Shown here: piece by piece, positions 52,950 to 64,000 of the stretch
How the letters are laid out: every line of letters starts with the position of its first letter
Numbering within the stretch: the stretch's first letter is position 1
Assembly (NCBI RefSeq): GCF_022879575.1
Contig: NZ_CP084260.1
Location: forward strand, 2,046,001-2,110,000
DNA length: 64,000 nt
Direction of reading: 5' to 3'
Source: Caballeronia sp. SL2Y3
GTDB lineage: Bacteria; Pseudomonadota; Gammaproteobacteria; Burkholderiales; Burkholderiaceae
The notes under the pieces: model-generated
Databases searched by the model: none
What the model saw: the letters and a program-made list of their open reading frames with translations, nothing else
Told to the model about the DNA's origin: nothing
Position numbers and translations under genes: made by a program

Positions 52950-53906
52950 CTACCCATCTATCCGCGATATCTGAGACTTAACATGTAGCCAGATTGACAA
53001 CTGCCGCTCCAGGTACTTTCGAAAGATGTTATCGCCATTGCGTGCAAGGGTCGTAACTGTATTGGCTGTCGCATGCCGCCAATGGCCGAAAACGAGCACG
53101 GTGTCGTTTCGCTTGAGCGGATGCAACCATTCAGCTTGACTGGTCCATGCCGTAGCGCGCGCGAGTTCTCCCACCGTTGAGTCACGAAAATATGGCTGTG
53201 CTGCTGACGGCTTCATATGCAAGGCATACAAAGATCGACCATGTCTTTCAATGGACTCTATGTTGGACACCGTACCCACAAGCGTGACCGGAAAAGAAGT
53301 TGCAGTCTTACCGAGCCAACGATAGGCTGCGAGGAACCGCGCTTCGTCGTAATAGAAGTCTTCCCAGGTTACTGACATCCCATTGAAGACGAACTGGAGA
53401 CGCTCACTCAGATCGGAATCGCTCGCACACAAACTTCGAAGTTCAATAACTCGCTTCGCCGCGTTAATGTAGGCAGACAGAAGATGGCGAGGGTCGCTTG
53501 AAAACAACGCACTGCCGTGTCCTGCCATATCGCCCTTCGGAGATATTCTCGAACGCTTTGAATCCGTGTCTACGTCGCGTATATCATCAATCGCAAGCAG
53601 CCGAAAACGATATTGTCCTCGTTCGATGGCCTGCAAGAGACCAAACGAACGACGCGCAATGACTTTTAGTTGCTCGTCGACATCGAACATGCAGCGCTCG
53701 TTATGCGCCCCCTTCGGAAACAAGCGGAAATAAGCCTTGACCGCGTAGGCTTTGCCCCGACTCTCGCGTGCGTGCTGCGGAACGTAACTGACGGGCGCGC
53801 TGCAAGACACACATCTCAACGGCGGAGGATCTTGGAGACAACCGATCGTCTCGGCGGAGACTTCTTGCCCGTCCATTGTCCTAGCTACCCACATTCTTGC
53901 AGCCAT
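52950..53906 (-). CDS. Orphan protein with CxxC...HxxxC cluster, unknown function
   Basis: 318-residue cytoplasmic protein starting MAARMWVARTMDGQEVSAET, with GGGAGAAAG immediately upstream. A likely metal-binding module sits near the N-terminus: C32-x2-C35, then AYFRLFPKGAHNERC giving H68-x3-C72, reminiscent of CoiA-like zinc modules. The C-terminal third (TLVGTVSNIESIERHGRSL, LKRNDTVLVFGHW) looks beta-rich and possibly OB-fold-like. No family recognised. It is isolated, next to an IS66 copy, with less GC bias than the glycan genes, suggesting horizontal transfer. Confidence 0.7.
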   Translation of the reverse strand: MAARMWVARTMDGQEVSAETIGCLQDPPPLRCVSCSAPVSYVPQHARESRGKAYAVKAYFRLFPKGAHNERCMFDVDEQLKVIARRSFGLLQAIERGQYRFRLLAIDDIRDVDTDSKRSRISPKGDMAGHGSALFSSDPRHLLSAYINAAKRVIELRSLCASDSDLSERLQFVFNGMSVTWEDFYYDEARFLAAYRWLGKTATSFPVTLVGTVSNIESIERHGRSLYALHMKPSAAQPYFRDSTVGELARATAWTSQAEWLHPLKRNDTVLVFGHWRHATANTVTTLARNGDNIFRKYLERQLSIWLHVKSQISRIDG

Positions 53907-54153
53907 CTTTCTCCCTCGTTGTTCATTTGCGAGACACGGTGAAGACCATGCAATGACGCGATGATTTGATGCCACTTCCTGTTCTTTCAGCGCGCGCTAG
54001 TCAACCCTGGCGTCTCTGCGTGCGCTGACCGCAAGAGGAGATCGCGGGGCGGATACGAAAGTGCGGGCGACGGCTCGCTTGGTGAAGCCTCGGCTGGCAC
54101 GTTCCGAAAGCCAGCGCGCTAGCCCGGCGCCGATCTTTTTCCGCGCGATGCTG

Positions 54154-54161: not shown

Positions 54162-54236
54162 GTAAGCACCTCGCGGCGGCCGTCGTAGACGCCGGCGCGG
54201 CACGAGATCAAAGTAGTGCCCATCATTTTCGATTTG

Positions 54237-54641
54237 ATGGACACCACTGTGACAGAGTCGGAAGCCAAGCCGGGTAGCCGCAAGGGACGCCCGAACCATG
54301 ATCCGGAATTTCGACGCCGGCTTGCGGCCGCGGCATGTGAGCCTGGCGTGTCGGTCGCAAAGCTGGCCCGGGAGAGTGGCATTAATGCAAACATGCTGTT
54401 CACATGGCGGCGTCGGTATCGCGAGCAATTGCAGGCCGAAACGACTTCCATGATTCCAGTGGCGGTGGTCCATGATACGCTGCCCGCGCACGTGGCGATG
54501 ACGCCGGAAGCACGGGACGTTGGCAATCGGACGCCACTCGCCGGGACGATCGAGATTCGAATCGGCAGCGTAGTCGTCAAGGTTGACGGCGTCGTCGATG
54601 CCGATACGCTACGGGTCGTACTAGCGAGCGTGCGATCGTGA
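54237..54641 (+). CDS. tnpA: IS66 accessory protein TnpA
   Basis: 134-residue HTH protein: PEFRRRLAAAACEPGVSVAK then LARESGINANMLFTWRRRYR, the usual IS66 TnpA helix-turn-helix. Needed with TnpB for IS66 transposition, exact role not established. The ATG at 54237 gives the normal N-terminus MDTTVTES; a GTG at 54216 is possible. Overlaps tnpB by 4 nt (GTGA). Confidence 0.93.
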   Translation: MDTTVTESEAKPGSRKGRPNHDPEFRRRLAAAACEPGVSVAKLARESGINANMLFTWRRRYREQLQAETTSMIPVAVVHDTLPAHVAMTPEARDVGNRTPLAGTIEIRIGSVVVKVDGVVDADTLRVVLASVRS

Positions 54642-54982
54642 TTGCGCTGCCTACGGGTACACGCGTCTGGCTGGTGGCAGGCGTCACCGACATGCGCTGC
54701 GGATTCCAGGGACTGGCGGCGAAGGTACAAACGGCGCTCGAGGAGAATCCGCTGGGCGGCAACGTGTTCATCTTCCGCGGTCGTCGCGGCGATCTCGTGA
54801 AGGTCCTGTGGGCGACCGAGGACGGGCTCTGGCTCCTCGCAAAACGGCTTGAGCGAGGCCGTTTCGTCTGGCCCCAGACCGATGGCGGCAAGGTCTATCT
54901 GACGGCGGCGCAACTGTCGATGTTGCTCGAAGGCATCGATTGGCGGCAGCCGCGTCGGACCGCTGCAATGTCGATGTTGTAA
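54638..54982 (+). CDS. tnpB: IS66 accessory protein TnpB
   Basis: 114-residue protein with the TnpB signature TRVWLVAGVTDMRCGFQGLA, NVFIFRGRRGDLVKVLWATE and GLWLLAKRLERGRFVWP. GTG start overlapping the tnpA stop, the arrangement normal for IS66. Intact. Confidence 0.96.
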   Translation: MIALPTGTRVWLVAGVTDMRCGFQGLAAKVQTALEENPLGGNVFIFRGRRGDLVKVLWATEDGLWLLAKRLERGRFVWPQTDGGKVYLTAAQLSMLLEGIDWRQPRRTAAMSML

Positions 54983-55012
54983 ACCGCCCGGAAGGCTCGT
55001 AAACTGCGCCGC

Positions 55013-56566
55013 ATGTCGAACGGCGCCGAATTTCCTGACGATGTCGAAACCCTGCGGGCCTTGCTGGCCGAGGCCCGTGCCCAGCTTGCCGAGCGCGATC
55101 TCGAGATCGAGCAACTCAAGGCGCAGATCGACAAGCTCAAGCGCATGCAGTTCGGACGCAAGTCCGAGCAGTTGGACCGCGAGGTCGCGCGGCTCGAGAC
55201 CGCCCTTGAGGATCTGACCGGTGAGCGTGGCGTCGCTGATGTGCGACGTGCTCGCCAATCGAGTGCGAGCACGCCTGTCGGTGACGCGTCGCCGAAAGAA
55301 GCGCTGCCGCCGCATCTGCCACGCGAAGAGCGCGTGCTGGAAGCCGACGCGACCTGCCCGAAGTGCGGCAGCGCCATGCAGCCGCTCGGAGAAAATGTGT
55401 CCGAGCAACTCGCTCGCGTCTCGGCGATGTTCAAGGTGATTCGCACGATCCGACACAAGACGGTCTGTCCGTGCGGCCACCACTTCTCGCAGCCGCCTAT
55501 GCCTGGCCTGCCGATCACGCGCAGTATCGCCCATCCAAGCCTGCTGGCCGACATCCTCGTCTCGAAGTACGCGGACCACACTCCGTTGTACCGGCAGTCG
55601 CAGATTGCCGCGCGCGATGGCGTGAAGCTCGACCCGGCCAGCATGGGACGCTGGGTCGGCCAGTGCGAGGCGCTTTGCGGGCCGCTGACCGAGGCGCTGC
55701 GCCGCTACACGATGGCAACGTCGAAGCTGCACGCGGACGACACGCCGATCCCGGTGCTCGCGCCGGGCAACAAGAAGACGAAGACCGGGCGACTCTGGGT
55801 GTACGTGCGCGACGACAGCCGTTCGGGCTCGACGGAGCCGGCTGCGGTGTGGTTTGCCTACTCGCCCGACCGCAAGGGCATCCATCCACAGACCCATCTC
55901 GCCGGATTCGAGGGCATCCTGCAGGCCGACGCCTACGGCGGCTTCAACGAGCTGTACGAGAGCGGGAAGGTCCGTGAGGTTGCATGTTGGGATCATGCGA
56001 GACGGTACATATACGACGTTCACGCCCGCACGCCCACCGAAGCGACTCGACAGGTGCTCGGATTGATCGGCGAGCTCTACGGCATCGAGGCTCACATCCG
56101 TGGCAAACCGGTCGCTGAACGGCTGCGAGTAAGACAGGAGAAAAGCGTGCCGCTGCTGGCGGCGATCAAGGCGTGGATGACGGACAAGCTCACGACGCTG
56201 TCGAAGAAATCCGAGCTGGCCAAAGCGATCCGTTACTCGCTCAACCAGTGGGATGCCCTCGTGCTGTATGGCGAAGAGGGCCGCGCCGAGATCAGCAACG
56301 CCTTGGCCGAAAACGCGCTGCGTTGCGTGAGTCTGGGCCGGAAGAACTTCTTGTTCGCGGGCTCCGACAGCGGGGGCGAGCGGGCCGCCGCTATGTACGG
56401 TCTGATCGGAACTTGCAAGCTCAATGGGATCAACCCGCGCGTCTACCTCGAATACGTCCTGACTCATATCGCGGACCATCCCATCAACCGCGTCGATGAA
56501 CTGCTGCCCTGGAACATGGCCAGCAAGCTGCCTCCGCACCCTGACTTACCCGCGTCTACTGCCTGA
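55013..56566 (+). CDS. tnpC: IS66 transposase TnpC
   Basis: 517-residue DDE transposase. In order: an N-terminal coiled coil (residues 8-60, LAEARAQLAERDLEIEQLKA), zinc-binding domain CPKCGSAMQP with CPCGHHF (near 118-165), then the catalytic acids D in HADDTPIPV (near 241), D in LQADAYGGF (near 305) and E in ALAENALRC (near 431). C-terminal NRVDELLPWNM is typical. No frameshift, so the element should be autonomous. Confidence 0.97.
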   Translation: MSNGAEFPDDVETLRALLAEARAQLAERDLEIEQLKAQIDKLKRMQFGRKSEQLDREVARLETALEDLTGERGVADVRRARQSSASTPVGDASPKEALPPHLPREERVLEADATCPKCGSAMQPLGENVSEQLARVSAMFKVIRTIRHKTVCPCGHHFSQPPMPGLPITRSIAHPSLLADILVSKYADHTPLYRQSQIAARDGVKLDPASMGRWVGQCEALCGPLTEALRRYTMATSKLHADDTPIPVLAPGNKKTKTGRLWVYVRDDSRSGSTEPAAVWFAYSPDRKGIHPQTHLAGFEGILQADAYGGFNELYESGKVREVACWDHARRYIYDVHARTPTEATRQVLGLIGELYGIEAHIRGKPVAERLRVRQEKSVPLLAAIKAWMTDKLTTLSKKSELAKAIRYSLNQWDALVLYGEEGRAEISNALAENALRCVSLGRKNFLFAGSDSGGERAAAMYGLIGTCKLNGINPRVYLEYVLTHIADHPINRVDELLPWNMASKLPPHPDLPASTA

Positions 56567-56655
56567 CTGCCGGCCAGTGAGAAGCACGTAGCCTGATTCC
56601 CCGATCATGCCTCACGCGAACGTCCCGTTGCGAACGGCCGTCGCGAGGTGCTTAC

Positions 56656-56663
56656 TTTTTACG
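56656..56663. repeat. Right target-site duplication of IS66 copy
   Basis: TTTTTACG directly after IRR; matches 54154-54161. Confidence 0.95.
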
Positions 56664-57174
56664 GTGGGGTTACGTCGCTGCTCTTCGGTTGTGGCAGCGG
56701 TGACGGTGATGAGCGTCCCGTTGCCGACGAACGCCGCTCGCCAACAACGACAACTGAGTTCGTGGGCACCGGAGGCACCCTCGCCCTTGCATCTCGCTGT
56801 GCGTCGGTCTTCTAACCCGGCCCTCGTAGGCCGGGCAAAGCAGAGCATCCCGGTTCGAGTACGCCGACGCCGGAGGCTGCACAACGCCTTAGAGATTGAC
56901 GGTTAGAGGATTCTGTCGCTGGAGCAACGAAGGGCGCACTGCGGCGCATGGCCCGGCGGCTGTGACGACCGGAATTCTGAGCAAGACGTGAGTGCCCGGA
57001 TTGATTGGACCCGTAAGTGGCGCGAGCGGAATCGCCAGTCGGCAATGAGGCAGACCACGCCAAGCGGCGTGGTCTGCACAAACAACGTCGATCGAGTTTG
57101 AAGTCAACGTCGCGTCGACGAACGGCCGAACCACTGCAAAGAAGAAGCCAATGAGGCAAGCTTCAGCATCATCG
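56664..57174. other. 511-bp region right of IS66, no firm gene
   Basis: Holds overlapping short frames on both strands with Arg-rich, low-confidence products. With the IS removed, a minus-strand frame runs across the insertion site and ends at the stop near 54119, but its product lacks recognisable domains. Confidence 0.4.
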
Positions 57175-57648
57175 TCACGTCGATTCGTTGTCACCCGGAA
57201 AGCACATATGTCCGATGATGAACAGAGCCGCGGACGTGACGCAAAGCAACGCGGTTTCAACGATGACACCTGCGTCCCAGTCCTTGCTTGACTGAACCAG
57301 GTAGCACGCGCCGATCAACGAAAAGGCACTCAGCATATGGGCGAAGCGCCGATTGAGTCGCCGTTGAGCGCGATTGGGAGTTGCGACACTTTTCAGCGTC
57401 GTGACTAGACGCTCACCCAAAGGCAGTTTGGCCCCCACCGCAAGTTCGCCGTCGGGGGCGCCTGTTACGCGATAGGTGACGCCGTCTACCGAAACTCGAA
57501 TCGACGAGCGGCGCTCTGCCTTCTCGAGTTCGGTAAGCATCGCGCTCAAGCGCGGCGGCAGCAAAATGCGGGATGACGCCTGAACGACGACACGGTCGGT
57601 CAGGATCAAGCCACCTGCATAGCGGACTTCTAGTACGGCGAGTTTCAT
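57175..57648 (-). CDS. Small two-TM membrane protein, unknown function
   Basis: 157 residues from the ATG at 57648, with AAGGAGG 5-11 nt upstream. A soluble N-terminal domain (about residues 1-95, MKLAVLEVRYAGGLIL, basic region NRAQRRLNRRF) precedes two membrane segments (FAHMLSAFSLIGACYLV and VIVETALLCVTSAALFIIGH). No family recognised. It is the last gene of a minus-strand series that includes the three NERD-like genes, but 690 bp downstream of the nearest one. Confidence 0.7.
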   Translation of the reverse strand: MKLAVLEVRYAGGLILTDRVVVQASSRILLPPRLSAMLTELEKAERRSSIRVSVDGVTYRVTGAPDGELAVGAKLPLGERLVTTLKSVATPNRAQRRLNRRFAHMLSAFSLIGACYLVQSSKDWDAGVIVETALLCVTSAALFIIGHMCFPGDNEST

Positions 57649-58335
57649 AAAGCCTCCTTGGCTAATAAAGTAGCGGCCTTCGGCGGTTTGCCGGGCCAGA
57701 CTACGGTGGTGAAATAAGACAGCGGTGGATCGTGCGCGACCCATCACTGATCGCGCAGCGAACCAGCGTGGCGGCGAGATGCTGAATACGGTGACGAGCA
57801 ACGTCCTGCGACCACGCGTGCGCAGGCGTGTCCGCCGAACAGATAACTGTGTTGGTGTGAGACAACGGCTTCGTTCATAGCCGCAAGCGCGCTTGTCTTG
57901 CACGCAAACTTGAAGGACGACGCGACTGGGGACCAGCGCTCGGATACAACGATGGGAAACGGTGGCGGGTTGCTCAATAAACTCGCGTGCGAGCCGGGAC
58001 TGCATTTTCCCCGAGCCGCCAGGCATAAAAGGAGTGGCAAGCGCGCGTCAGCCGTGCGCTTGGCAAGGTCGATGCGTGAATACGCGGTAGGTGCAACCAA
58101 TATAGCGCCCCCATTTGATCGTTTCCGCTGGAAAGCTTCGTAAAAACGGCGTCTTTTCTGTCTGCTGGCGGATATCGATTTCACGGAGCGGGCAGCTCAA
58201 GCGGCGGTTGCCGTTCGAGCGCGATAGAGATCGGTTTGCCCGACGCTGCGCCACGGACAACTTTCGAGGGTTGGCTCTGGTTTAACGTGGCGGGCGCGCT
58301 GCGATATAACGAAACAGCGATTCCGGGTACCGGTA
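57649..58335. other. 687-bp gap between membrane-protein gene and NERD-like gene
   Basis: No frame with a ribosome site or recognisable product. The strong ribosome site at its left edge indicates a promoter for 57648 in this gap. Moderate AT content; nothing else seen. Confidence 0.4.
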
Positions 58336-59001
58336 TCACGGGCGCGAGCGCCCGCGAGAGCAAAGCCAGTCGATATGGGAAGCGAGGTTGTCCACATCTA
58401 AATAGCGCCGGTGCGTTGCGCGGAAGCGGTTCAACCTCGTGCGCACGAAGTAGTGCACGTCTGGCAAGGTCAAGACGCCATCCGGCACGGTCGGATGCAG
58501 GCTGCCGCCCGCTTCGCCTAGAACGGCGATACTCTCGACCGGACAGTCATGCTGAGACAGCACCGACCGCAAATGCCGCACGGCCGGCTTCGCTCGGCGC
58601 AGCGGCGACGTATGAATCGTCACGTCGCCACGGTCATCGACGACGGCCAGTTCATCGTCGTTGGGTCCCGGTTTGACCAGGCCTGTCCAGTGGAAGTGGT
58701 TCACGACGAACACGCCAAACGGTGTGATCGCGAGGCAATCAACCTGTGTTGTCGGGTTCTTGGTGCCCGGTGCATGTTCGAGTTCGATTGAATGGCGCAC
58801 ATGCGCCCGGCCATCGCACGCATGCTGAAAGATCGGCGCGATGCGCATTAGCAACGATTGGCTCACGCGTTGACGGCGTTCCGTACCGTTGGTCGCCTCT
58901 TTCCTTGTCCTCGGGGAATGGCTGAGGGTATCGTCAGCGGCGCAGGCCGTCTCGTTCGGCACGTCGTGCGTCGGTATTCCGTCTTGATTGTGCTTTCTCA
59001 T
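58336..59001 (-). CDS. NERD-like protein A, degenerate active site
   Basis: 221 residues from the ATG at 59001 (GAGGGACCAA upstream). The N-terminal 75 residues are hydrophilic. The core TQVDCLAITPFGVFVVNHFHW corresponds to the NERD nuclease signature (D...GvfviExK): Asp 88 and Gly 96 are kept, but the Glu and Lys positions read Asn 101 and Phe 103. SPLRRAKPAVRHLRSVL and VHYFVRTRLNRFRA match the NERD C-terminal part. Paralogous to the proteins at 60187 and 60940. Nuclease activity is unlikely; function unknown. Confidence 0.7.
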   Translation of the reverse strand: MRKHNQDGIPTHDVPNETACAADDTLSHSPRTRKEATNGTERRQRVSQSLLMRIAPIFQHACDGRAHVRHSIELEHAPGTKNPTTQVDCLAITPFGVFVVNHFHWTGLVKPGPNDDELAVVDDRGDVTIHTSPLRRAKPAVRHLRSVLSQHDCPVESIAVLGEAGGSLHPTVPDGVLTLPDVHYFVRTRLNRFRATHRRYLDVDNLASHIDWLCSRGRSRP

Positions 59002-59203
59002 TTGGTCCCTCGGCTTTCGTTGATAGGGGTGACTTTCAAGGGAAGTCATCGCATGCCACTGCGGTCTCATTTGCAAGTCAGGCCGCCACCCGCGCGACCG
59101 CGCCTGGCGGCATAGCTCGACCGAGCATCTTTGAGTGACGCGAGCGGTAATTGGCCAATAAGAAGGTGGATAGGTTGCGCTATGAAAACACCGCCAGGCG
59201 AAC

Positions 59204-59707
59204 CTACGCGCATTGACACTCGTGCGGCTCGCTTTCCAGCAGCAAGCTTCGCAATGCCGCGATGCGCTGCTGCTGAGTTGGGATGAGGCAAGTCTTTTGC
59301 TTGAGTCGCTCTAGCCGTGCGAGCCAATAAGACTGAGGCAGGTAGGCATGTAAAGACGGGCCGTGAGCGCGAGTGACGTGACGAATCACCGCTTCAAGAT
59401 GTCGGATTTCGGCGTCCGCGCACCGTGCGGGCAGACGCACCGTTGGGGACGGTATGCTGAGGGCAGACGGACCTGTTGATCGTGCTAACCCTTGCCGGAG
59501 GGGATGCTTGCGCGCTGCACGCACTGGCGTGCGAGTGCGTTTGCGGTCGGACGGGTGTTCGATCGAACCGCGAGCATGGGTCGGCGCCGGTCGCTGGGCG
59601 GAATGCGCGCGGCAGGAACGTTTGTGTATTGGCATGTCTGCACTCATCTCGTTGGGACAAATCCAGCATGCCTGTGAGTTCACGATGTCAAGGCATAGGG
59701 ACGGCAT
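59204..59707 (-). CDS. Hypothetical protein with CxxC, between NERD-like genes
   Basis: 167-residue frame from 59707; later ATGs near 59647 or 59635 are possible. An N-terminal CWIC pair echoes the CxxC of the neighbouring NERD-like proteins. The C-terminal 70 residues form an amphipathic, Leu-rich section (HLEAVIRHVTRAHG, YWLARLERLKQ, IAALRSLLLE). The middle is Arg/Pro-rich. No family recognised; it could be a real partner of the flanking genes or partly fortuitous. Confidence 0.45.
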   Translation of the reverse strand: MPSLCLDIVNSQACWICPNEMSADMPIHKRSCRAHSAQRPAPTHARGSIEHPSDRKRTRTPVRAARKHPLRQGLARSTGPSALSIPSPTVRLPARCADAEIRHLEAVIRHVTRAHGPSLHAYLPQSYWLARLERLKQKTCLIPTQQQRIAALRSLLLESEPHECQCA

Positions 59708-60186
59708 GAGGCCGGATTTCGATCTCAGTGTTCGCCTCCAACACCTCGAGCCTGCGAGGGCTCCGCCGCGCTCGGCGGTCGACCACGTTTATTAGACGTC
59801 GCTTTACAACCCGCGCTGACGCAACCGTTTTCCGACTGCGTGAAACGTTGATTTAAGTTGACGCAAAGCCCGCCTAATGCATTTGGATTCCTTATTAATG
59901 AGTCCGCCGACGCAATGAGTAGTGGCCTTTTCTGGACATCCCGCGTGCATGCTAGTTCGCGGACTGGCGCCGGTGACCAACATACGAACGAAGCGCGTCG
60001 GTTACGTCACGTCGCCGATGCGCGAAGTTGGGCGTCACAACCCCACGACATAGCTAAGCGTCGCAAGGAATCGCTCGCGAAACTTCGGGGGAACGCCTGC
60101 AGACGCTCCCCAAAGAGAATGCCTTCACCGGTCGTGATGATGGAATGCGTCGGCGCAATCGAGCGTTGGTTAGTGGGCCGCCACCG
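59708..60186. other. 479-bp gap, no supported gene
   Basis: A plus-strand frame at 59858-60265 enters the NERD-like gene antisense and shows no motif. Nothing else was seen. Confidence 0.4.
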
Positions 60187-60840
60187 CTACTTGCAAGCGC
60201 TGAGCAGCAGGTCGGTCATCTTGCTGCGTTCCAAGTTCCAGCCCTTGCAATATGCAGCGTCTTGACGGATGCGGAAAAAGTGTTCGAGTTCCTTCATCGT
60301 AACTAGCGACGTCGGCAGCGCGCGAGCCAACGTGCAGCGCTCGTCGTCAAAGACGGCGAGCGCCTCAATCGAAGCCGGGAAGTCGGCGAAAAGCGCTCGC
60401 AGGAAGCCAACCACCGCCATGGTGCATCTTAATGGCGATCTGTAACGGCGGATGTCGCCAGTTGAGTCCTGCACTACCAGACTGTGCTGATCTTCGCCGC
60501 GGCTGACGAAACCATGGCCCTCCATCCGGCTGATGACAAACACACCAATGCCTGTCACAACCACGAAGTCTGCTTGAGCCACGGGACCAGTTATCCCCTG
60601 CGACGTCAGCACCGTGAGCTGTTGAACAATGTGGGCATGGCCAGCGCCAATCGATGACATGACATCGCCCAGATTTCTAGTGAACGCTTCAATCTTTCGT
60701 TGTCGCTCCTCTGGCTTTGTATCACGTGGGTTTCCCTTCGGGTGGCCGAGCACGGCCCGCGTTGGAATGAAGGGCGCATCGTGCCAGTAACCACAGGTTG
60801 CGCATTGCTGTTGCATACTCATCTTGTTAGATTGTGACAT
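60187..60840 (-). CDS. NERD-like protein B, degenerate active site
   Basis: 217 residues. An N-terminal zinc-ribbon-like pair CATC (Cys 13, Cys 16) is followed by a helical linker. The NERD-type core AQADFVVVTGIGVFVISRME keeps Asp 91 and Gly 99 but has Ser 104 and Met 106 at the Glu and Lys positions. The C-terminal YRSPLRCTMAVVGFLRALF and IEALAVFDDERCTL match the family. Clear paralogue of the proteins at 60940 and 58336. Its start at 60840 has no strong ribosome site; ATG at 60822 is possible. Confidence 0.72.
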   Translation of the reverse strand: MSQSNKMSMQQQCATCGYWHDAPFIPTRAVLGHPKGNPRDTKPEERQRKIEAFTRNLGDVMSSIGAGHAHIVQQLTVLTSQGITGPVAQADFVVVTGIGVFVISRMEGHGFVSRGEDQHSLVVQDSTGDIRRYRSPLRCTMAVVGFLRALFADFPASIEALAVFDDERCTLARALPTSLVTMKELEHFFRIRQDAAYCKGWNLERSKMTDLLLSACK

Positions 60841-60939
60841 GCGAGGTAATCGCTGGGTTGCGGGTACTACCGGGTTCCGTCATGAGGTAACGAGCGCTGC
60901 TATTGCGTGGCGGGCCGAGCTGATATGGGACGGCACGGG

Positions 60940-61584
60940 TCAATGCTTACCGTGAATTGGTCTGTTGCAACACGCTCGCAATCGCCGGTATATGTCTTCC
61001 ATATCGACTCGCCGATAGTAACCGCGCATCTGCTCTTCCTTAACTCTCAAGAAGTGGTGTAGCTCGCACAGCTTCAACATGTTGAGTGGGAGCGCGTTTT
61101 CAAGTTTGCAGTCGGGGTTGTCAAAGATGGTGACGGCCTCGACGGGGACTGGCAAACCTCTGAGGACGAGCTTAAGCGCGCCCGCAACGGGGGCGGGGTC
61201 TTCATAGCTGAAAACGTCTCGATTGGCCAGTCCGTGGCGTGCGCCGAGTGCCCCAGGCTGCTCGTCGCTGGTGATGTATCCGCTGGCGCTGATGCGAGCA
61301 ATGACGAACACCCCGAAGGAGGTCACGAGGACGCTATCGGCGCGCATCACTGGGGTAGCAAACGGCCGACCTACAAACACGCTCAATTCCTCCTCTAGAA
61401 CGAAGTCGTCTCCTAGGAAACGGAAGAGGATGCCGTTTAAGTGATGTGCGAAGTCAATGTATCTGTGCCGTTTTGCAGTCAATCCGTCGAGGTTACCTAG
61501 GTATCCTCGGTAACCAAGGCGTAAATGTATGGCCTTGGAGAGTTCATCGCTTCTCTCGTGTTCACAGTGCCCGCACACATCCAT
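60940..61584 (-). CDS. NERD-like protein C, degenerate active site
   Basis: 214 residues from the ATG at 61584, with GGGAGG upstream, the best start of the three. CGHC (Cys 4, Cys 7) forms an N-terminal zinc-ribbon-like pair. The core RADSVLVTSFGVFVIARISA retains Asp 83 and Gly 91 while Glu and Lys positions are Ala 96 and Ile 98. VPVEAVTIFDNPDCKLENAL and LCELHHFLRVKEEQM align closely with protein B. It leads the minus-strand series, 99 bp upstream of B. Function unknown. Confidence 0.75.
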   Translation of the reverse strand: MDVCGHCEHERSDELSKAIHLRLGYRGYLGNLDGLTAKRHRYIDFAHHLNGILFRFLGDDFVLEEELSVFVGRPFATPVMRADSVLVTSFGVFVIARISASGYITSDEQPGALGARHGLANRDVFSYEDPAPVAGALKLVLRGLPVPVEAVTIFDNPDCKLENALPLNMLKLCELHHFLRVKEEQMRGYYRRVDMEDIYRRLRACCNRPIHGKH

Positions 61585-61824
61585 TGGTACTACCTCCCTT
61601 TTTAGTCGTCCGCTACTACCCGTGATGAAACCGGGTGCAGCTCAGCACTGGAAATAGTAGAGGGCGTCAGTCGACCGATTACGGACTATGGTGACGAATT
61701 TCATATCTCTTTCCCTCGCGCGACCGTGATATCGATCGCAAACAGGCAGTTCCCACGGATGCGAGCTTTCGGCGATATCGTTCGGTGTGACCGAGCGACT
61801 ACCGCCGGGATGCGGAAACCGTCG

Positions 61825-61959
61825 CTAGAGAACGTCAAGCAGCACGGCCGGCGTTTGCGCGTTCTGTTTGTCTCCGGCCTTGCGGCGGCGGTAACATTCG
61901 ACGTTGAACTCGAAGATCGTCGAGTGATGCACAAGAGGATCGATGACGATCACCGCCAT
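61825..61959 (-). pseudogene. istB C-terminal relic (IS21 family)
   Basis: Forty-four codons ending in TAG encode DPLVHHSTIFEFNVECYRRR, the characteristic C-terminus of an IS21 IstB ATPase (compare DRL-HHSTIFE...YRRR). All upstream domains, including the P-loop, are absent. The copy differs from the complete istB at 63060, so it is a remnant of another IS21 element. It abuts repeat unit R1. Confidence 0.75.
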
Positions 61960-61963
61960 GCCG

Positions 61964-62148
61964 GGTCGTGGCGCAAGTACTGCGGGCCGGGATTCTTAGC
62001 GTCGAGCAGCGCTATCCGGATAGCGTCCCACTCAATTCTTATGCAAAGGCAACCGTCTGATTTCATTGCGAAACTGCCCTGCTCCGAAACGTGCCGAATA
62101 TTTACACCCCCCTTATCCGGCACGGTTTTCACGTTTTGAAACGGCGCG
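61964..62148 (+). repeat. 183-bp repeat, copy R1
   Basis: Begins GGTCGTGGCGC, holds the 16-bp palindrome CGCTATCCGGATAGCG (62010-62025) and a C-loop hairpin (CGTGCCGAATA 62090-62100 with 62114-62124, one mismatch). 185 bp; similar to R2 and R3. Confidence 0.75.
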
Positions 62149-62448
62149 ATCGGGTCCGCAATGCTCGGTTGCCCGTCAAGAAACAGTCCGTGCACGACAA
62201 CTACGACCGGCGAAAAGACGACACGCTTCAAGGGACGCATCTGCACGCGTCTTCCCGGACGAGCACGACCATGCGATCGCATGGGTCCACACCTCATCGA
62301 ACCGGCGACGACTGCGGTCATGCACTCTGCGACTACCTCGTCATTACACTCATTCACGTCCGGCGCGGACGGATTTAGATGGCTAGGCAGACCAGACTTC
62401 CGACGGGCGCCGGCCTCGCCGGCGTGTTGCGTGTAGCCAAATTGCCTA

Positions 62449-62630
62449 GGTCGTGGCGCGCAACAACTGCGGGCCCGCGTTCTAGCGTCGAGCAACGTTC
62501 ACCGGGAGATCGTCGCGTACCGTTCTACGCCCACTCAACCGCTGGATTTATATGGGAAACTGATTTGTTGCAGGACGTTCCGAAATTCACCCCCTTATTC
62601 GGCATGCTTTTCATATCGTGAGATAGCGCG
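62449..62630 (+). repeat. 183-bp repeat, copy R2 (most diverged)
   Basis: 182 bp starting GGTCGTGGCGC. The AGCGTCGAGCAACG stretch and the terminal CCCCCTTATTCGGCA are recognisable, but the palindrome and left hairpin arm have decayed. Confidence 0.65.
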
Positions 62631-62663
62631 TTAAGGCCGGAATGTTGCATGTTTACTTGCGTA

Positions 62664-62846
62664 GGTCGAGGCGACCCAAGTACTGCGAACCGCACTTATA
62701 GCGTGGAGCAACGCTATCCGGATAGCGTCCCTCTTCGTTCTTAGTGTGAGCCAACACCTTGATTTTTCTAGTTAATCAGCATGCTACAAAGCGTGCCGAA
62801 TATTCACACCCCCCTTATTCGGCACGCTTTCCACATGGTGAAATGC
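62664..62846 (+). repeat. 183-bp repeat, copy R3
   Basis: 183 bp with CGCTATCCGGATAGCG at 62712-62727 and a perfect 12-bp hairpin GCGTGCCGAATA (62791-62802) / TATTCGGCACGC (62816-62827), its loop a CACCCCCC run. Best-preserved hairpin of the three copies. Confidence 0.75.
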
Positions 62847-63059
62847 CCCCGGTCAATGGGAACGGTGGTTTCCCCTCCGTGGTGGTGCAACTCAAGCGAC
62901 ACGGCGAAAGGCGACGAGCAACGCGGGTATAGGCAAGCGCACGGCTTCTTCCTCGCCTGCCTTGGGTACTGGACTGATGGCCGTCCATCGTGTCAACGTC
63001 GGACCTAGTTTCCCCAAAACTGTCGGAGTAAAAATCCCCACCCTGTATTTGCGTGGTGA

Positions 63060-64000
<941 letters not shown>

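Follow-up and report, generated by a model that had tools for sequence, protein, structure and literature searches.

NERD-related proteins lacking the catalytic Glu and Lys in a chromosomal Caballeronia island, possibly a plasmid-derived DNA-maintenance module

The window analyzed here is a stretch of 64,000 nucleotides from Caballeronia sp. SL2Y3 (NCBI RefSeq assembly GCF_022879575.1, contig NZ_CP084260.1, positions 2,046,001 to 2,110,000), and it holds, on a 2.84-Mb contig, a cluster of three NERD-related genes that we call N1, N2, and N3 (Table 1). The initial annotation, made from the letters alone, had described them as three minus-strand paralogues, and this is borne out by phmmer comparisons (E 2e-19 for N1-N2, 3e-20 to 4e-20 for N2-N3, and about 4e-9 for N1-N3). 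They do not form a simple tandem array, as had been suggested, since the small gene H4 and a 551-bp gap lie between N2 and N1. At E up to 10, the strain's own genome yields two NERD matches, and the cluster accounts for both. The family and genome searches covered Caballeronia (a set of 58 genomes) and relatives, with other genera seen mainly through a plasmid collection of 72,556 records; L, G, and C numbers are our handles for loci, genomes, and contigs. The closest named relative among the compared loci is C. concitans, though nearer records may be left out.

Table 1. Features of the island and its surroundings, in window coordinates.
Feature	Position	Strand	Description	Basis
341-aa protein	52950..53975	-	Far island end	Position beside membrane gene in relatives
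IS66 genes	54638..56566	+	Insertion element; open reading frame 54216-54641 outside Pfam test	Pfam TnpB_IS66, DDE_Tnp_IS66
Membrane protein	57175..57648	-	157 aa	8 orthologues, alignment, hydropathy
N1	58336..59001	-	NERD-like, 221 aa, E-x-K replaced by N-H-F	Pfam NERD 1e-9, start from three orthologues, motif columns
H4	59204..59635	-	Small conserved protein, 143 aa, no family assigned	9 homologues aligned, C-terminal half conserved
N2	60187..60840	-	NERD-like, 217 aa, E-x-K replaced by S-R-M, N-terminal CxxC	Pfam NERD below cut-off, alignment, hhalign
N3	60940..61584	-	Most divergent NERD-like, 214 aa, E-x-K replaced by A-R-I, N-terminal CxxC	hhalign, motif columns
Palindrome, copy 1	62010..62025	.	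Perfect 16-bp CGCTATCCGGATAGCG	
Palindrome, copy 2	62712..62727	.	Perfect 16-bp CGCTATCCGGATAGCG, symmetric over 18 bp	
IS21 istB	63060..63926	-	Insertion element	Pfam IstB_IS21

A NERD signature had been read in all three proteins. For N1 the Pfam model (PF08378) agrees, with 39.3 bits against a cut-off of 22.1, but N2 falls below that cut-off at 17.0 bits and N3 has no Pfam NERD match. Profile comparison extends the relationship to the other two: the N2/N3 family profile aligns with plasmid-type NERD proteins over the domain at 99.0% in hhalign, and N3 with its one orthologue does so at 96.2%, while control profiles of unrelated island genes reach 0.4% (the membrane protein) and 0.05%. Searches of solved structures with the island and plasmid-type NERD profiles gave no match at E 10. 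N1 was initially called at 58336-59076; this start is over-extended, and we prefer the ATG at 59001 because the longest open reading frame in three orthologues (L034, L039, and L040) begins there. The reported CxxC pair is present in the sequences of both N2 and N3, although among 10 aligned rows it occurs only here and in C. concitans. The further pair ascribed to the hypothetical protein between the NERD genes falls away, as it lies in an over-extended stretch of H4, whose start we place at ATG 59635 because four orthologues begin there.

The central observation is the loss of the active-site residues. Our motif alignment comprises 42 rows (26 island-type, 12 plasmid-type, and 4 outgroup NERD proteins, the latter drawn from seven extracted NERD stretches that all carry E-x-K by eye), and the replacements listed in Table 1 hold in the columns aligned with the plasmid-type proteins. 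Glu and Lys are both absent from 26/26 island-type rows; E-x-K is present in 12/12 plasmid-type rows, as E-T-K, and in 4/4 outgroup rows. Nor does an intact motif lie elsewhere, because any other E/D-x-K triplet lines up in a single column in 3 of 24 rows at most. All three window proteins retain the upstream metal-binding Asp, as do 18/26 island-type rows overall, but only 5/13 of the N1 rows have it. GxxGE occurs anywhere in 3/24 island rows, and its three letters are invariant in 11/11 plasmid-type rows. On a tree built without the E-x-K columns, the loss of both residues would most simply be read as one change, that is, a single loss in the island lineage. The catalytic residues are lost while the domain is kept by sequence profile, which supports a non-catalytic role, as the initial annotation had argued. 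We consider it probable that the trio has such a role and that this role is maintained.

The wider island puts these genes in context. The fullest order in relatives is a recombinase, N2, a ParB-helix-turn-helix (ParB-HTH) protein, H4, N1, the membrane protein, and the 341-aa protein. Among 12 surveyed loci, some of which start at a contig end, the ParB-HTH gene and an N2-type gene were each found in 8 (in L060 both are fragments). The C. concitans locus has the same N2-N3 pair as the window strain. The ParB-HTH gene gave 0 matches in the window strain genome and none in C. concitans; since this gene was not detected and N3 adds a second paralogue, the gene set of the window strain has been remodelled. 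The recombinase is a tyrosine recombinase with a C-terminal Fis-type HTH that lies just past the window end in this strain (G000:C1:2111400-2112773). Its R, K, HxxR, H, and Y residues are all present, and the motifs are intact in the compared island copies. At identities of at least 76% it occurs in 16/58 genomes, two of them with broken copies (G015 and G066), and the membrane gene at 55% or more likewise occurs in 16/58, two of them partial. The proposed association of the trio with the membrane protein gains support, since its gene follows N1 in relatives where both are seen; the protein itself, from its start at 57648, shows a single clear hydrophobic segment when scanned 19 residues at a time, rather than the two transmembrane segments first assigned to it. 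The 341-aa gene adjoins the membrane gene in 8/9 sources in one survey and 11/12 loci in another, and in L039/L052, L051, and L058 it is incomplete or split into pieces. Its product has no match in Pfam, NCBIfam, or PADLOC and matches one PHROG of unknown function (E 1.7e-8).

Two insertion sequence (IS) elements were said to flank the trio, and Pfam confirms both IS66 and IS21. IS66 is inserted between the membrane gene and the 341-aa gene, which are less than 900 bp apart in relatives where both are found. On the other side, a 414-aa istA-like open reading frame (istA by eye, in L047) lies beyond the window end, followed by the island recombinase. No tRNA gene that might have served as an insertion site was found in the 12 sources scanned.

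A separate observation concerns a second island type (L105, L107, and L108, from G071, G019, and G070; also L041, from G024). Here the NERD-like genes likewise lack E-x-K and a recombinase adjoins them. That recombinase keeps the checked residues in L105, L107, and L108, and G071 and G019 hold a second recombinase paralogue in which several residues are lost.

The principal competitor to a maintained role is that the island is a decaying relic, in which plasmid genes landed on a chromosome and have been drifting to loss, with the dead NERD proteins as early casualties. The missing ParB-HTH gene and the entry of IS66 and IS21 into the island fit this account, as do broken copies in relatives: the recombinases of G015 and G066, an N1 in pieces (L111), and the fragments in Paraburkholderia graminis (L060). 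Selection argues otherwise. The ratio of nonsynonymous to synonymous substitution rates (dN/dS), estimated by the Nei-Gojobori method with our own script, ranges from 0.10 to 0.50 across 18 comparisons. For the NERD-like genes it is 0.49 and 0.31 (N1), 0.36 (N2), and 0.50 (N3); for their neighbors 0.29 and 0.45 (H4), 0.28 (membrane protein), 0.24-0.26 (341-aa protein), and 0.10 (recombinase). Between other species it is 0.10 and 0.16 for N2, 0.22, 0.41, and 0.45 for N1, and 0.23 and 0.25 for the ParB-HTH gene. Among the 11 comparisons that were bootstrapped (1000 resamples), at most 26/1000 resamples reached a ratio of 1 (N3), with 15 for N1 in the closest pair. With dN/dS below 1 throughout, the NERD-like genes seem to be retained by selection, although the constraint on N1 and N3 is loose in the closest pair. 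The gene order is the same in many species. Decay is therefore an unlikely explanation, if still the strongest of the alternatives.

The island genes have homologues on large plasmids. In the plasmid collection (E 1e-3 or better), N1 has homologues in 29 records, the membrane protein in 21 (remote), and the ParB-HTH protein (query from L034) in 3, all from Burkholderia, Paraburkholderia, Caballeronia, Robbsia, or Cupriavidus. The Caballeronia plasmids p3 and pNK84 carry annotated PRTRC (ParB-related, ThiF-related cassette) genes, an integrase, and a NERD protein in one backbone, and on p3 the ParB-HTH homologue adjoins parA and parB. On pBVIE02, a NERD gene, a match to the recombinase profile annotated as a Fis-family regulator, ParB, and ThiF-type genes stand in similar order. 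By our own tally of the 12 plasmid-type NERD rows, seven (including p3) are on a contig with a PRTRC ParB over cut-off and four on other contigs of such genomes; the named plasmids among them are p3 and pBVIE02, the latter with an annotated ParB and ThiF-type gene. PRTRC ParB (TIGR03734) exceeds its cut-off in 21/58 Caballeronia genomes. Recombinase, NERD, and membrane-protein homologues of this plasmid backbone are present in the window strain; the ParB-HTH protein was not found there. We regard it as very probable that the island and the backbone of large PRTRC-type plasmids are related. Among the literature matches listed, no paper contains both PRTRC and NERD. In addition, H4-like stretches occur in 23 plasmid or chromid records, nearly all from Caballeronia and Paraburkholderia (E up to 1, some weak); among the matches listed, 13 of 20 have no annotated gene there, although the gene table is incomplete.

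A second connection between chromosome and plasmids is the perfect palindrome CGCTATCCGGATAGCG. Within two mismatches, the window contains its two copies only, against 0.02 expected. The strain's genome has three exact copies, the third of which, on contig C3, has flanks nearly identical to those of a copy in G078 and seems unrelated. Across the genome set there are 48 exact copies in 16/58 genomes, and 0 of the reversed control. Our own tally, which combines the recombinase, PRTRC ParB, ParB-HTH, and palindrome searches, places 16 of these in islands and 18 on contigs with a PRTRC ParB or a plasmid-type recombinase; nine more share their contig with a weaker indication, namely a ParB-HTH, ParB, or recombinase-fragment match, and five are unassigned. 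The palindrome occurs in 15/30 genomes with an island or a PRTRC ParB versus 1/28 without (Fisher p 7e-5, from genome sets for island, PRTRC ParB, and palindrome entered by hand from the searches). A copy follows the recombinase match at a distance of about 480-560 bp from its end in six islands (G010, G011, G029, G031, G064, and G081) and of about 110-160 bp on four plasmid-type contigs (G011:C7, G021:C52, G022:C7, and G077:C30). On pNK84 the recombinase-side copy lies between two convergent annotated genes and is therefore no ordinary promoter site there; another copy on this plasmid lies between divergent genes. A symmetric variant, CGCTCTCCGGAGAGCG, is found in two copies in C. concitans (L049) and in one perfect and two imperfect copies in C. 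zhejiangensis (L058). The palindrome was also sought on plasmids of other genera; with one 32-base query, the sole match below E 1 came from within the genus, in Caballeronia NK8.

Other sites were noted alongside. We considered CGCTATCCGGATAGCG as the parS of the p3 ParAB system, but this is unlikely: parA and parB are surrounded there by four copies of another 16-mer, GTTTCCACGTGGAAAC (L075:15352-18092), which is itself the likely parS of p3. A second shared palindrome, with core TATCATGATA, occurs in eight loci (L034:11360, L035:13124, L038:3850, L051:1786, L053:3542, L056:3874, L057:4406, and L058:7260), in most of them between the recombinase and N2, and is absent from window positions 56600-64000.

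Dead versions of plasmid proteins, together with a palindrome common to chromosome and plasmids, might also point to decoys on the chromosome that disturb PRTRC plasmids entering the cell, by dominant-negative incompatibility. Such a function would predict avoidance, and none is seen: a PRTRC ParB is found in 7/16 genomes with the island and 14/42 without (Fisher p 0.55), no association in either direction. We consider decoys distinctly improbable.

The trio might instead encode regulatory DNA-binding proteins of a surrounding polysaccharide locus. The island does lie within polysaccharide genes in the window strain, where 46979-51887 matches WecA-like, epimerase-like, and glycosyltransferase-like families in NCBIfam, and sugar or O-antigen genes also stand beside it in L036, L040, L051, and L054. 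Flanks tested in other loci are methyltransferases (L033 and L037), RepB (L055), transposases (L034 and L056), or members of no family, and no sugar-gene link was seen in the plasmid stretches that were read, which leaves little room for this explanation. By eye, transporter- and glycosyltransferase-like open reading frames also lie on the other side of the island (L047:7214-18541).

Least likely of all is the suggestion, drawn initially from the IS setting, that these are anti-phage defence genes or other accessory cargo between IS elements: NERD domains do occur in known defence proteins, and the plasmid-type NERD proteins weakly match PglW and MAD6 models, far below cut-offs, but the IS elements lie inside the island, with IS66 splitting two of its genes, the homologues include plasmid backbone genes, and the six window proteins and the ParB-HTH protein have no match in PADLOC-DB at E 0.1 or better. 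For the NERD trio, neither PADLOC nor PHROG gave a match, and we rejected it as a defence candidate; the recombinase has one weak PADLOC-DB match, to an HTH (E 0.0075).

Overall, we give about even odds to the trio belonging to a plasmid-derived DNA-maintenance module in which NERD subunits have turned into non-catalytic binding proteins. What the data show directly is homology to plasmid genes, loss of the two residues, low dN/dS, a shared gene order, and the distribution of the palindrome; the module is our reading of them. Such a module would handle the maintenance or topology of its carrier DNA. The NERD proteins, once nucleases or nuclease-like, would now serve as non-catalytic subunits that bind DNA or a partner, the membrane protein may anchor the complex, and the palindrome may be read by the recombinase or by another member of the set. 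This division into binding NERD proteins, membrane anchor, and palindrome reader is offered more tentatively than the module itself. More doubtful again is its most specific form, a domesticated plasmid maintenance apparatus in which a complex of dead NERD proteins, the Fis-HTH recombinase, and the membrane protein assembles on the dispersed 16-bp palindrome; the palindrome would then be a recombination or centromere-like site common to the island and some PRTRC plasmids.

Several points weigh against a maintenance module of this kind. The direction from plasmid to chromosome is one that we infer, as is the assignment of a palindrome reader to any island protein. Support for the island-type group on the tree is 84/82, which is not strong and carries a long-branch warning; the PD-(D/E)XK core of the trio is a prediction from sequence profiles; and the closest-pair dN/dS intervals are wide (0.28-0.93 for N1 and 0.28-1.00 for N3). 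The C. zhejiangensis locus (L058) is without N2 and the ParB-HTH gene. Half of the genomes with an island or a PRTRC ParB are without an exact CGCTATCCGGATAGCG; p3 as a whole (G036) has no exact copy, and allowing up to three mismatches reveals none in the scanned stretches of pBVIE02, the G020 contig, and the type-B islands. No clear change in the recombinase HTH tracks the CGCTATCCGGATAGCG and CGCTCTCCGGAGAGCG variants, and in the window strain and C. concitans, where the ParB-HTH gene was not found, the palindromes are still symmetric. Finally, no 11-mer is repeated within at least 4/10 islands, although the window slice in that scan excluded its palindromes.

NERD proteins are widespread and little studied. 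An intact plasmid form and a dead chromosomal form in one genus, together with a candidate site, make a clean comparison possible, one that addresses what NERD proteins do with and without catalysis and what purpose the palindrome serves.

The domain was first found on a Bacillus plasmid, and the authors who described SmdA of Staphylococcus aureus state that they know of no earlier study of its role in bacteria (PMC9040797). By their account SmdA is NERD-like but lacks a number of the best-conserved NERD residues, and it is still functional; as a degenerate NERD protein with a function, it is a precedent for the island proteins (PMC9040797). It differs in that it is described as a division factor attached to the membrane and has just one gene, and the excerpted text of that report mentions neither recombinase nor plasmid genes (PMC9040797). 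The PRTRC cassette lies on the same plasmids as the island-gene homologues; the window genome has four PRTRC ParB matches, none over cut-off. NERD proteins of PRTRC-type plasmids (WP_244818497.1 on Caballeronia p3 and ABO59958.1 on pBVIE02) are homologous to the island proteins over the domain, and both plasmids also carry recombinase and membrane-protein homologues, with the ParB-HTH homologue on p3. The plasmid NERD proteins keep GxxGE, D, and E-T-K (11 rows), whereas those of the island are without E and K and do not conserve GxxGE, and genes that extend across tens of kilobases of plasmid lie within about 10-12 kb on the chromosome.

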